Position numbers and translations under genes: made by a program. This document shows positions 3,032-5,712 of a DNA stretch of 5,870 bases, piece by piece. How positions within the stretch are numbered: position 1 is the first letter of the stretch; the number at the start of each line of letters is the position of its first letter. The DNA comes from Bacillota bacterium (lineage in GTDB: Bacteria > Bacillota_A > Clostridia > Clostridiales > Clostridiaceae), in assembly GCA_021780795.1 (NCBI GenBank), contig JAJXYA010000097.1:1-5870 (forward strand). Direction: 5' to 3'. The notes beneath the pieces are model-generated. The model was given only the letters and a program-made list of their open reading frames with translations. It ran no database searches and was not told the DNA's origin.

Positions 3032-3118
3032 ATGAGAACCTTTTATTATTTTATGGTGAATATTGTAATTATAGATTTTTTATATTTTGTTTTATCTTTA
3101 CCCATAGGTATTGTTTAA
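3032..3118 (+). CDS. Possible 28-residue hydrophobic small peptide
   Basis: A short frame from ATG at 3032 to TAA at 3116-3118, preceded by AAAGGAAA with AGGA seven bases before the start. The predicted peptide begins MRTFYYFMVNIVIID and continues with a hydrophobic stretch ending SLPIGIV, so nearly all of it could span a membrane once. It has one basic residue near the start and one Asp in the middle. AT-rich DNA readily yields Phe/Ile/Tyr-rich frames by chance, and I see no well-spaced promoter directly upstream (TTGTCG at 2972 and TAGAAT at 2992 are only 14 bp apart). I do not recognise a family. The placed ribosome binding site is the main argument for it. Confidence 0.25.
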   Translation: MRTFYYFMVNIVIIDFLYFVLSLPIGIV

Positions 3119-3265
3119 TGCCATTTGCTAATATATATATATCCAAATTGATAGAATGAAAAACTCCAATTATTAGTGATAAGGTTTACATTTTATTATT
3201 ATAAAATATATTAGTAAAATAATTGATAAATTCTCAACAAAACTGAAAAATAACAAAAAAAAGTG

Positions 3266-3294
3266 TTGTTTCATTCTGATGTATTTGCTAAAAT
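3266..3294 (+). promoter_or_regulatory. Sigma-A-type promoter with extended -10 for the NifU-like/GGGtGRT operon
   Basis: TTGTTT (3266-3271) is followed after exactly 17 bp by TAAAAT (3289-3294). TG at 3286-3287 one base upstream of the -10 gives an extended -10. The -10 differs from TATAAT at one base. Transcription would start near 3301, giving a leader of about 105 nt before the ATG at 3406. This is the best promoter match in the intergenic region. Confidence 0.7.
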
Positions 3295-3308
3295 AAAACA
3301 GTTGGCAG

Positions 3309-3327
3309 TTACCTTCATGAAGGGTAA
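3309..3327 (+). promoter_or_regulatory. Palindrome/hairpin at the start of the operon leader
   Basis: A perfect 12-bp palindrome, CCTTCATGAAGG (3312-3323), is extended by TTA on the left and, across one extra G, TAA on the right. It lies about 10 bp after the predicted transcription start, so it could be a DNA operator for a dimeric repressor or a hairpin at the 5' end of the mRNA. A second small hairpin, AATCC-TTA-GGGTT, follows at 3355-3367. The leader does not match any riboswitch class I can recognise. Confidence 0.45.
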
Positions 3328-3405
3328 TAAAAAGACAATTGCAATATGTGGACAAATCCTTAGGGTTTTCATAAGCATTATTATCAAGGAGGGGGATTTT
3401 ATAAT

Positions 3406-4098
3406 ATGATGTATTCAACAGAAGTTGCACATATGTGCGTTCTAGCAAAAGGAGCAAATCATGGTCCAGCACCAATACCACAAGAAGGTAGATGGGTACA
3501 ATCTAAGGAAGTTTCAGACATATCAGGTTTAACTCATGGAGTGGGCTGGTGTGCACCACAACAAGGAGCTTGTAAATTAACACTTAATGTTAAAGCAGGT
3601 ATTATCCAAGAAGCTCTAGTTGAAACGATTGGATGTTCAGGAATGACTCATTCAGCAGCTATGGCAGCAGAAATTCTTACTGGAAAGACTATATTAGAGG
3701 CATTAAACACAGACTTAGTTTGTGATGCAATAAATGTTGCTATGAGAGAATTATTCTTACAAATAGTATATGGCAGAACACAAACTGCATTCTCAGAAGA
3801 TGGTCTTCCAATTGGAGCAGGTCTTGAGGATTTAGGAAAGGGTCTTAGAAGTCAAGTTGGAACTATGTATGGTACTTTAGATAAGGGACCAAGATATTTA
3901 GAAATGGCTGAAGGCTATGTAAACAGACTTGCTATAGGCGAAGAAGGCGATATCATAGGTTATGAATTCGTTCACCTAGGTAAGGTTATGGAAATGGTTC
4001 AAAAGGGAATAGATGCTAACGAAGCTATAAAGAAAGCTACTGGAACATACGGTAGATTTGATGAAGCTACAAAATACGTTAATCCAAGACACGAATAA
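3406..4098 (+). CDS. NifU/IscU-like iron-sulfur scaffold protein, partner of GGGtGRT protein
   Basis: A 230-residue cytoplasmic protein. Residues about 45-110 resemble the NifU N-terminal/IscU fold: CKLTLNVKAGIIQEALVETIGCSGMTHSAAMAAEILTGKT corresponds to the IscU stretch from the KLQI strand through the central cluster cysteine (Cys77 here) and the following helix ending GK.L.EAL. Cys49, Cys56 and Cys106 are also present, but the IscU C-G-D motif is replaced by WCAPQQGACK, and no HCS-type third cysteine is seen. Residues 115-230 (YGRTQTAFSEDGLPIGAGLEDLGKG onward) are not part of standard NifU and are of unknown function. Proteins of this kind are often annotated as Fe-S cluster assembly scaffolds; cluster binding here is inferred. 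The start is the first of two ATGs (3406, 3409) after AAGGAGGGGG at 3386-3395, a slightly long gap. It is followed 18 bp later by the GGGtGRT gene, with which it surely forms an operon. There are no membrane segments or signal peptide. Either ATG could be used. Confidence 0.85.
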   Translation: MMYSTEVAHMCVLAKGANHGPAPIPQEGRWVQSKEVSDISGLTHGVGWCAPQQGACKLTLNVKAGIIQEALVETIGCSGMTHSAAMAAEILTGKTILEALNTDLVCDAINVAMRELFLQIVYGRTQTAFSEDGLPIGAGLEDLGKGLRSQVGTMYGTLDKGPRYLEMAEGYVNRLAIGEEGDIIGYEFVHLGKVMEMVQKGIDANEAIKKATGTYGRFDEATKYVNPRHE

Positions 4099-4102
4099 TT
4101 AA

Positions 4103-4108
4103 AGGAGG
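4103..4108 (+). promoter_or_regulatory. Strong ribosome binding site between the two operon genes
   Basis: AGGAGG lies in the 18-bp gap between the TAA of the NifU-like gene and the ATG at 4117, eight bases before the start codon. It fixes the start of the downstream gene and suggests efficient co-translation from one mRNA. Confidence 0.85.
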
Positions 4109-4116
4109 GTGAAATT

Positions 4117-5118
4117 ATGGCTTTATTTGAAAGTTATGAAAGAAGAATAGGCAAAATAACAGAAGTTCTTAGAGCATATGGAATGGAAACTTTAGACGAC
4201 GCAAAGGCGCTTTGTGAAGCAAAAGGTTTCGATCCTTATACAATATGTAAGGAAATACAACCGATAGCATTTGAAAATGCTGCTTGGGCATACGTTTTAG
4301 GAGCTGCAATAGCAATAAAGAAGAACTGTACAAAAGCTGCTGATGCTGCAGTCGCAATCGGAGAAGGCTTACAAGCATTTTGTATCGCTGGATCAGTTGC
4401 AGATGATAGAAAAGTAGGTATAGGTCACGGAAACTTAGCTGCAATGTTACTTAAAGAAGAAACTAAGTGTTTCGCTTTCCTTGCAGGTCATGAAAGTTTT
4501 GCGGCTGCAGAAGGCGCAATTGGGCTTGCTAGATCAGCAAACAAAGTGAGACAAGAACCATTAAGAGTAATCTTAAACGGTCTTGGAAAAGATGCAGCTC
4601 AAATAATTTCAAGAATAAACGGTTTTACTTATGTTCAAACTCAATTTGATTATTTAACTGGTGAAGTTAAAATAGTTAAAGAGATTGCATATTCAAAGGG
4701 TGAAAAAGCTAAGGTTAGATGTTACGGTTCTGACGATGTTAGAGAAGGTGTTGCAATAATGCATTCAGAATCCGTTGACGTATCAATTACTGGTAATTCA
4801 ACTAACCCAACAAGATTCCAACATCCAGTAGCAGGCACATACAAAAAAGAATGTACAGAACAAGGTAAGAAGTACTTCTCAGTGGCATCAGGTGGTGGTA
4901 CAGGAAGAACTCTGCACCCAGATAATATGGGTGCAGGTCCAGCTTCATATGGAATGACTGATACTATGGGAAGAATGCATTCAGATGCTCAATTCGCAGG
5001 ATCATCATCAGTTCCAGCACATGTTGAAATGATGGGATTCATTGGAATGGGTAATAATCCAATGGTAGGTGCTTCAGTTGCTGTTGCAGTTGCTATCGAA
5101 GAAGCAATGAAGAAATAA
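4117..5118 (+). CDS. GGGtGRT-family protein
   Basis: A 333-residue soluble protein of the GGGtGRT family (Pfam), named for its signature, seen here at residues 259-265 (GGGTGRT) within SVASGGGTGRTLHPDNMGAG. The family has no established biochemical function that I know of. Other conserved-looking blocks are an N-terminal helical region (1-50, with Cys33 and Cys44), GIGHGNLAAMLL (101-112), FLAGHESFAAAEGAIGLAR (121-139), and a Gly/Met-rich C-terminus (SYGMTDTMGRMHSDAQFAGSS, then MMGFIGMGNNPMVGAS). There are seven cysteines (33, 44, 71, 89, 118, 202, 246) and several His next to Gly, which would suit metal, Fe-S or nucleotide contacts, but this is inference. No transmembrane segment or export signal is evident. 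It is the second gene of an operon with a NifU-like scaffold, so the two products probably act in one pathway or complex. Both genes use more TTC, AAC and GGT codons than the permease upstream, as expected for well-expressed genes. The length looks complete. Confidence 0.93.
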   Translation: MALFESYERRIGKITEVLRAYGMETLDDAKALCEAKGFDPYTICKEIQPIAFENAAWAYVLGAAIAIKKNCTKAADAAVAIGEGLQAFCIAGSVADDRKVGIGHGNLAAMLLKEETKCFAFLAGHESFAAAEGAIGLARSANKVRQEPLRVILNGLGKDAAQIISRINGFTYVQTQFDYLTGEVKIVKEIAYSKGEKAKVRCYGSDDVREGVAIMHSESVDVSITGNSTNPTRFQHPVAGTYKKECTEQGKKYFSVASGGGTGRTLHPDNMGAGPASYGMTDTMGRMHSDAQFAGSSSVPAHVEMMGFIGMGNNPMVGASVAVAVAIEEAMKK

Positions 5119-5138
5119 ATTTCTGTGTGTTCAATAAC

Positions 5139-5198
5139 AATAAAGTTTAGTCAAAATGAAACAAGTTTGGTTAAACATAATAAAGTTTAGTTAAGGCT
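5139..5198 (+). repeat. 20-bp tandem repeat array (three imperfect units)
   Basis: Three units with exact 20-bp period start at 5139, 5159 and 5179. Their cores are AATAAAGTTTAGTCAA, AAACAAGTTTGGTTAA and AATAAAGTTTAGTTAA. The array begins 21 bp after the GGGtGRT stop codon and runs into the left arm of the terminator. The core is the reverse complement of the AACCAAACTTTATT copies found further right. A 20-bp period places the units on the same face of the helix, as a protein-binding array might. Confidence 0.7.
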
Positions 5199-5244
5199 GA
5201 GCAACCATGAAGGGTTTCCCGTTCATTGGTTGCACAGCCTTTTT
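5193..5244 (+). terminator. Intrinsic terminator of the NifU-like/GGGtGRT operon
   Basis: A long hairpin. AAGGCTG (5193-5199) pairs with CAGCCTT (5235-5241), GCAACCA (5201-5207) with TGGTTGC (5227-5233), then TGAA with TTCA and GGG with CCC around a TTT loop (5215-5217), with an A/A mismatch and two bulges. A T-run (5240-5244) follows. It lies 75 bp after the stop codon and ends the two-gene operon. Confidence 0.92.
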
Positions 5245-5249
5245 AAATT

Positions 5250-5276
5250 CCCGCCTGTACACTCAAAAATAAGGCC
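5250..5276. repeat. 28-bp direct repeat, copy 1
   Basis: Starts CCCGCCTGTACACTC and ends AAAAATAAGGCC. It matches the copy at 5425-5452 at 25 of 28 positions, with two substitutions and one missing base. It lies directly after the operon terminator. Confidence 0.65.
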
Positions 5277-5367
5277 TTAAAAGAATAGATTTTCAAATAG
5301 ATTCCCATATAGAAAACCAAACAGAACACCTCACCGCACACCCCATAAAATCATGCTTTAGAAGAGA

Positions 5368-5421
5368 ATAGAAAATAAAATAGAAGAAAAATAGAAAGAA
5401 AAAATAGAAAAATAAATAGAT
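5368..5421. repeat. Imperfect ~12-bp A-rich array (ATAGAA repeats)
   Basis: ATAGAA occurs at 5368, 5380, 5391 and 5404, followed by ATAGAT at 5416, so the spacing is 12, 11, 13 and 12 bp. The intervening bases are almost all A and G on the + strand. Stop codons break any long frame on this strand, so it looks noncoding. Confidence 0.5.
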
Positions 5422-5424
5422 CAC

Positions 5425-5452
5425 CCCGCCTGTATACTCGAAAAATAAAGCC
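5425..5452. repeat. 28-bp direct repeat, copy 2
   Basis: Starts CCCGCCTGTATACTCG and ends AAAAATAAAGCC. It is the same element as at 5250-5276, 175 bp further on and in the same orientation. The two copies flank the A-rich array. Confidence 0.65.
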
Positions 5453-5501
5453 ATCATTTCCCCTTCTTCCTTGCAAGTTTTCACCTGCATTACTTTCAAG
5501 A

Positions 5502-5515
5502 AACCAAACTTTATT
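5502..5515. repeat. AACCAAACTTTATT repeat, copy 1
   Basis: An exact copy of a 14-mer that also occurs at 5577 and 5671. Its reverse complement, AATAAAGTTTGGTT, closely matches the 20-bp array units at 5139-5192. A half copy (AACCAAAC) is at 5315-5322. Confidence 0.7.
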
Positions 5516-5576
5516 CTCATTTATTTTTGTGGAATTTTGAATAGAAAAAGACTAGAAAAAGGTAGGAAATGGGGAA

Positions 5577-5590
5577 AACCAAACTTTATT
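5577..5590. repeat. AACCAAACTTTATT repeat, copy 2
   Basis: Second exact copy, 75 bp after the first and in the same orientation. It is preceded by a purine-rich stretch ending ATGGGGAA. Confidence 0.7.
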
Positions 5591-5670
5591 GTGATTCGGA
5601 AGAAAATGGAAAAATGGAGTGAGTGATACCAACGGTTGTAGGAGTCGGAAAAGAGGAAAAAAGGGGTTTT

Positions 5671-5684
5671 AACCAAACTTTATT
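5671..5684. repeat. AACCAAACTTTATT repeat, copy 3
   Basis: Third exact copy, 94 bp after the second. It is also preceded by a purine run with GGGG, and its last two bases overlap the -35 element of the promoter candidate at 5683. Confidence 0.7.
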
Positions 5685-5712
5685 GATTTTGTATACTGTG
5701 TTCCATAATAAT
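5683..5712 (+). promoter_or_regulatory. Candidate promoter at the right end
   Basis: TTGATT (5683-5688) is followed after 18 bp by AATAAT (5707-5712), or after 17 bp by TAATAA. The -10 matches TATAAT at five of six bases in the 18-bp register. Transcription would start near 5719, directly at the inverted-repeat pair. Confidence 0.45.

Follow-up and report, generated by a model that had tools for sequence, protein, structure and literature searches.

Scaffold proteins of the IscU, NifU N-terminal and SufU type (PF01592) carry a canonical pattern of three cysteines and an aspartate. Fluoride-riboswitch (RF01734) regulons contain genes for crcB, CLC-F, DUF190, HAD and PAP2 phosphatases, Na/H antiporters and enolase. 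The GGGtGRT family (PF14057) is widespread, highly conserved and repeatedly listed in gut and rumen surveys without a function; a sequence-only reading of the present DNA gave it no established one, and the literature passages that name the family do not state one. Here we describe a stretch of 5,870 nucleotides (nt) from a Bacillota bacterium (Clostridiaceae; contig JAJXYA010000097.1 of assembly GCA_021780795.1), hereafter the window, in which a NifU-like gene is followed by a GGGtGRT gene. This pairing, present in widely differing anaerobes, is obligate, and in several lineages the pair is linked to fluoride riboswitches and exporters, a linkage that is new here. The reading we favour, to which we give about an even chance, is that the two proteins form a two-subunit, cofactor-dependent unit, important both when fluoride imposes stress and for iron-rich anaerobic metabolism, and not a standard iron-sulfur (Fe-S) scaffold locus. 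The two genes, each supported by the list of open reading frames (ORFs), Pfam, structure models and alignments, are:

3406-4098, + strand: NifU-like gene, 230 amino acids
4117-5118, + strand: GGGtGRT gene (PF14057), 333 amino acids

The sequence-only reading had treated the pair as a self-contained unit and proposed a neighbourhood survey for homologues without the partner. In a set of 93 loci recruited through GGGtGRT (6 annotated plasmid-collection records, 7 viral contigs and, out of 587 confirmed genome matches, the best 80), the NifU-like partner was directly upstream in 88, and in the other five (L035, L048, L090-L092) the contig starts within 55 nt of GGGtGRT. The partner was partial or interrupted in 3 of the 88 (L017, L075, L082) and cut by the contig end in some others. 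Intergenic spacing was mostly 2-63 nt, with outliers at 111, 193, 472 and 492 nt. Among 249 genomes of one phylum, GGGtGRT was found in 15 (16 copies) and a full-length partner in the same 15 (16 copies), all adjacent, with partner scores of 365-461 bits and a next match of 32.6 bits. Each gene occurred in a single one of 198 Bacteroidota genomes, the query's own. In 149 Bacteroidales genomes we counted GGGtGRT in 26, the partner in 25 and 24 intact pairs, the exceptions being remnants of both genes (G549) and a contig that ends 86 nt upstream of GGGtGRT (G476). The phylum of Geobacter G611 (297 genomes) had GGGtGRT in 8, one of them a fragment only, with the partner present at all 6 further full copies examined. 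Of 68 Clostridium genomes, 58 gave a GGGtGRT match, full length in 56, and the partner was present at 33/33 loci examined. In the 93 loci, the 249 genomes, the Bacteroidales, the Geobacter phylum and Clostridium, every full-length GGGtGRT that had sufficient sequence upstream was accompanied by its partner; the homologues without it that would have refuted the sequence-only reading did not turn up.

Several further observations concern the arrangement of the two genes. Among the best 120 matches to a fused query, 81 span at least 94% of it, nearly all on one contig each; of seven such candidates that were read, two continue through a short linker in frame, frame errors garble one, and others are truncated joins. 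We give these natural fusions little weight because sequencing error is possible. A 64-amino-acid gene lies between the two genes in Parabacteroides (L004, 5800-5991), and some Bacteroidales have a gap of 200-540 nt there. At G549:C33:34763-35456 (L104) a deletion joins NifU-like residues 1-66 to GGGtGRT residues 163-327, both genes decaying together, and at G198:C94 (L110) the pair is present complete in a divergent form, in a genome that has a normal copy as well.

Neighbour clustering with an Rfam scan gave the first fluoride riboswitch at a pair. We then searched with RF01734 in 67 pair-bearing genomes or records (72 loci, some in the same genome; L024 left out) and in 7 more, one of them fragment-only. 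The sample was not random, and the resulting counts are lower bounds because the filters were strict. Eighteen genomes or records gave 28 matches above the cut-off, and in 8 of the 73 with a full pair the switch lies on the same strand, at most 4.3 kb upstream of the pair:

Vibrio (L001): switch 113 nt before the pair, which is the only gene behind it
L051 (Bacillota): switch 47 nt before the NifU-like start, then NifU-like, GGGtGRT, DUF190, CrcB, CrcB
G178 (L112): switch about 30-60 nt before the pair, followed by CrcB, CrcB, DUF190
G092 (L111): TauE between switch and pair, which is followed by CrcB, CrcB, DUF190
G847 (L124): CrcB and DUF190 between switch and pair; a CLC gene has another switch ahead of it
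G003 (L026): phosphatase-type genes, CrcB, DUF190 and a sulfatase between switch and pair
Persicobacter (L003): CLC between switch and pair
G874 (L126): dynamin-like GTPase between switch and pair, then a second switch and a Na/H exchanger

The pair is thus the first gene behind the switch in three loci, and CrcB, CLC or DUF190 genes are part of the cluster in six of the eight; among the neighbours scanned, Pfam confirmed CRCB, DUF190, Voltage_CLC, PAP2, HAD and Na_H_Exchanger. Under uniform placement, 0.023 same-strand upstream cases would be expected against the 8 seen; as the distance limit was chosen with the data in view and the genomes are not a random sample, the p-value that goes with this is not to be read at face value. 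The fluoride label (7 rows) needs 5 changes on a tree of 83 GGGtGRT proteins, and the starred branches force at least 4; L124 and L126 were added later and stand outside the tree. Duplicate loci (L094-L102, L113 and L114) were dropped ahead of counting, and L021, then L001-L006, were left out of the structure alignments. The fluoride link thus has at least four origins on this tree. At L112 the aptamer shares its 3' end with a terminator hairpin, and the L051 sequence shows the same, as in on-switches; no aptamer-overlapping terminator was listed in L001.

Three other loci touch on the same subject. A Geobacter locus (L018) has CrcB and DUF190 before the pair, with no fluoride switch found by the same search under its strict filters. 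The Myxococcales locus L011 has a switch on the downstream side, 2.5 kb from the pair and oriented away from it; this switch adjoins a gene that is enolase-like by sequence; the enolase of Clostridium L008 was confirmed. L056 was excluded from the fluoride-linked loci because its CLC gene (433-1662) is far from its pair, whose NifU-like gene starts at 4285.

The sequence-only reading missed the fluoride link, which is not visible in the window. In the openly licensed literature (CC0, CC BY, CC BY-SA) we found nothing that brings 'fluoride riboswitch' together with NifU or IscU, and crcB, NifU and fluoride came together only in one paper, on a Virgibacillus genome. The pair is not named in the available parts of the review PMC11139923 or of PMC2864571; the original fluoride-riboswitch paper lies outside this scope, and a mention there is possible.

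The sequence-only reading called the first protein NifU/IscU-like, and an IscU-type core at residues 38-125, with an IscU fold, bears this out. The PF01592 (NifU_N) match is marginal (E 1.5e-4; 22.3 bits, with the cut-off at 22) and covers residues 56-102 only. C49, C77 and C106 are invariant in the alignments and C56 is usually kept; the C-terminal part is less conserved than the core. In a profile alignment, the position of the canonical IscU Cys37 is taken by Gln53 and Asp39 has no counterpart, so that the canonical pattern is not reproduced: three cysteines are invariant, with the first displaced and the aspartate unmatched. The best score with the NCBIfam equivalog models for IscU, NifU and SufU was 25.2 bits, against a cut-off of 187.9.

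PF14057 covers the whole of the second protein (E 1.2e-194, 646 bits against a cut-off of 27, model positions 1-327 of 327), and the GGGTGRT motif is at residues 259-265, as first read. The structure model has a helical N-terminal part followed by a Rossmann-like alpha/beta part at about 113-260. The most conserved segment, 259-299, is modelled with low confidence. Across 13 diverse members 125 of the 333 residues are invariant, and divergent members share no invariant cysteine. A three-cysteine cluster (C89, C118, C202), present in 75/75 rows of one alignment, was rejected because divergent members lack it. There was no confident fold match; SIS, universal-stress and CO-dehydrogenase-like folds were considered.

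Published expression tables link both proteins to iron. In an iron stimulon table for B. thetaiotaomicron, BT0173-BT0174 (GGGtGRT, NifU) change by -12.8 to -11 fold (PMC10434189). The tabulated C. pasteurianum spots are higher with iron, 7.1-fold early and 2.2-fold late for GGGtGRT and 3.7-fold early and 2.9-fold late for a NifU-like spot; the row of another spot of the NifU-like protein has all its cells filled and is not clearly legible (PMC5395762). High abundance of the pair is likewise taken from published work. Protein surveys of the chicken gut, the rumen and the human gut list one or both proteins (PMC11204068, PMC7035244, PMC12643325, PMC13041051, PMC12014591, PMC12101220).

In the two-subunit reading that we favour, the IscU-fold subunit would hold a metal or Fe-S cofactor on C49, C77 and C106, usually also C56, and GGGtGRT, through its conserved His, Asp, Glu, Asn and Arg residues, would be the subunit that binds the substrate and probably carries out catalysis. 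The pair would belong to ordinary metabolism in iron-rich anaerobes. In lineages that meet fluoride, it would have been placed behind fluoride riboswitches and exporters, and be induced with the exporters, because its activity may replace, protect or repair something that fluoride poisons. A bolder version, which we offer tentatively and would not bet on, is that the pair is an unrecognised fluoride-tolerance enzyme: two-subunit and iron-cofactor-dependent, it would take over or repair a fluoride-blocked step of Mg-dependent central metabolism, in constant use in iron-rich anaerobes, fluoride-induced elsewhere, and in Clostridium under an undescribed leader RNA, perhaps a sensor of this signal or of a related one. 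The fluoride switch supplies a defined inducer and a testable phenotype for GGGtGRT, and hints that fluoride tolerance has a protein component beyond exporters and known fluoride targets. If the IscU-fold subunit does carry the cofactor, a scaffold would have turned into a permanent enzyme subunit.

Several points weigh against the two-subunit reading. Sixty-five of the 73 pair-bearing genomes in this non-random, strictly filtered sample have no such switch at the pair, and RF01734 was not found in the window, which gave no Rfam match at gathering score and none up to E 5 in 3100-3420. A model of the two proteins as a fused chain (predicted template-modelling score 0.73, mean predicted local distance difference test 73.8) neither shows nor excludes contact. 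A bound metal, cluster, interface or reaction is not evident from any computation, and no GGGtGRT fold match points to a substrate. Loss of the canonical first cysteine and of the aspartate could also mean lost cluster binding, and the iron regulation may merely track growth state.

We consider it unlikely that the NifU-like protein is instead a dedicated Fe-S scaffold or carrier, which would assemble or store a cluster and pass it to GGGtGRT or other enzymes, with fluoride operons carrying the pair because fluoride stress disturbs metal handling. The IscU core with its three invariant cysteines, the tabulated iron-dependent expression and a Collinsella pair 1.9 kb behind a sufBDSU cluster fit such a role, but a sulfur donor was not seen beside the pair in the window, Gln53 stands at Cys37 with Asp39 unmatched, scaffold models score at most 25.2 bits against the cut-off of 187.9, and the partner is always GGGtGRT, itself without an invariant cysteine. 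The 'dedicated Fe-S cofactor system' of the sequence-only reading is not supported as stated: the scaffold's first cysteine and aspartate are replaced, GGGtGRT has no invariant cysteine and no interface is shown. The same absence of a cysteine to receive sulfur in GGGtGRT, together with the absence of a visible desulfurase partner in the window, makes it very unlikely that a SufU-like, sulfur-transfer or zinc-type relative of IscU modifies or activates GGGtGRT without an Fe-S cluster.

An iron-sulfur or metal store, made abundantly under plentiful iron to sequester iron and sulfide and to counter metal-fluoride complexes in fluoride clusters, would suit the higher levels with iron tabulated in two phyla and the recurrence in the gut and rumen surveys; we hold it to be quite improbable, for GGGtGRT conservation (125/333 invariant in 13 diverse members) is enzyme-like and not store-like, and inspection by eye revealed no repeated metal-binding motif. 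Hitch-hiking, in which the pair entered fluoride clusters by chance or through mobile elements inserting at its 3' end, has a slim chance at best. Integrases do lie just downstream in 13/103 loci, and two Bacteroidales have a duplicated 3' end, but the link has at least four separate origins, the pair comes first behind the switch in three cases and is the sole gene in Vibrio, about 0.02 cases are expected, and none of the 13 integrase loci is among the eight fluoride loci.

The 3' end of GGGtGRT looks like an insertion site for mobile elements. The integrases are phage-type, at most about 400 nt downstream, and of three types, one a fragment. A segment of 170-178 bp of the 3' end is repeated with 94-97% identity about 24 kb away in Bacteroides fluxus or 2.1 kb away in Phocaeicola (L006 5990-8300; G002:C13, L113 and L114), and short 3'-end fragments recur across Clostridium genomes. 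In the Geobacter metagenome-assembled genome (L018, 3318-3411) a 'pan' RNA motif of weak score (38.3 bits, the cut-off being 36.2) lies just downstream of GGGtGRT, and the ORFs after it resemble panB and panC by eye.

In Clostridium, 31 of 33 leaders share TAGGATAAA, a hairpin with CCC/GGG, and TTTTTGACC upstream of the NifU-like start (L010 and its near copy L146 were left out of the alignment), for example:

L138:3289-3329, - strand: Clostridium leader motif, from the leader alignment

A hand-drawn two-helix structure pairs in 74.1% of cells; its covariation score reaches 0.212, compared with 0.165 +/- 0.017 for shuffles (2/500 as high), and falls to 0.181 when slid by +1. Pairs changed on both sides showed no excess (7 against 6.6 in shuffles, 287/500), nor did further pair types (198/500), and RNAalifold predicted no structure in these leaders. 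No Rfam match in the motif was found in 16 loci at E <= 1. The leader model R1 finds L007, whose leader had gone into the training set as L094, and also L010, at 263 nt upstream (E 0.025), and nothing above 7.9 bits in the window. Over 77 leaders, shared upstream 9-mers were no more numerous than in shuffles. The evidence for a conserved structured RNA is suggestive, not proof.

The remaining features of the locus in the window are:

3387-3395, + strand: ribosome-binding site of the NifU-like gene, AAGGAGGGG, by reading the sequence
4102-4109, + strand: ribosome-binding site of the GGGtGRT gene, AAGGAGGG, by reading the sequence
3260-3405, + strand: leader of the pair, without a match to Rfam or R1
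about 5193-5245, + strand: terminator-like hairpin, then a T run, by eye

Both ORFs are where they had been placed, separated by 18 nt and both preceded by a strong ribosome-binding site, and we take both as real genes, not chance ORFs, because they have thousands of candidate relatives (at least 8000 and at least 7999, all at E <= 0.001; the best 120 for each protein were listed). The single promoter claimed earlier is not supported by the scan, since consensus matches are no commoner than in shuffles (15 sites against 13.3 +/- 4.5). The claimed terminator is plain by eye and absent from the list of a scanner that takes loops of 3-8 only. Elsewhere in the window, a 127-amino-acid ORF (2485-2868, - strand) is a truncated peptidase gene whose Peptidase_M28 match is limited to profile positions 110-189 of 193. 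The non-coding segment downstream of the pair (5125-5690) holds three direct copies of AAACCAAACTTTATT-like 21-mers, with inverted copies closer to the pair.

Compared with IscU, NifU and SufU, the NifU-like protein shares the IscU-type core and differs in its weak family scores, in Gln53 at the first canonical cysteine, flanked by Cys49 and Cys56, in the unmatched aspartate and in an extra C-terminal part of about 100 residues. Its locus also differs from theirs, with no desulfurase, ATPase or ferredoxin seen beside it. The view that the locus is something other than a standard isc, suf or nif one holds, as neither cysteine desulfurase, ATPase nor carrier was seen by eye among the window's 12 ORFs, of which the Pfam scan took in three proteins. 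GGGtGRT is a full member of PF14057 and does not differ from its family. Unlike the genes of known fluoride-riboswitch regulons, the pair is no exporter, phosphatase or known fluoride target, and a fluoride switch is missing at most of its copies, among them the one in the window; like those genes, it lies behind the same aptamer family in 8/73, and the same exporters accompany it in most of the eight cases.
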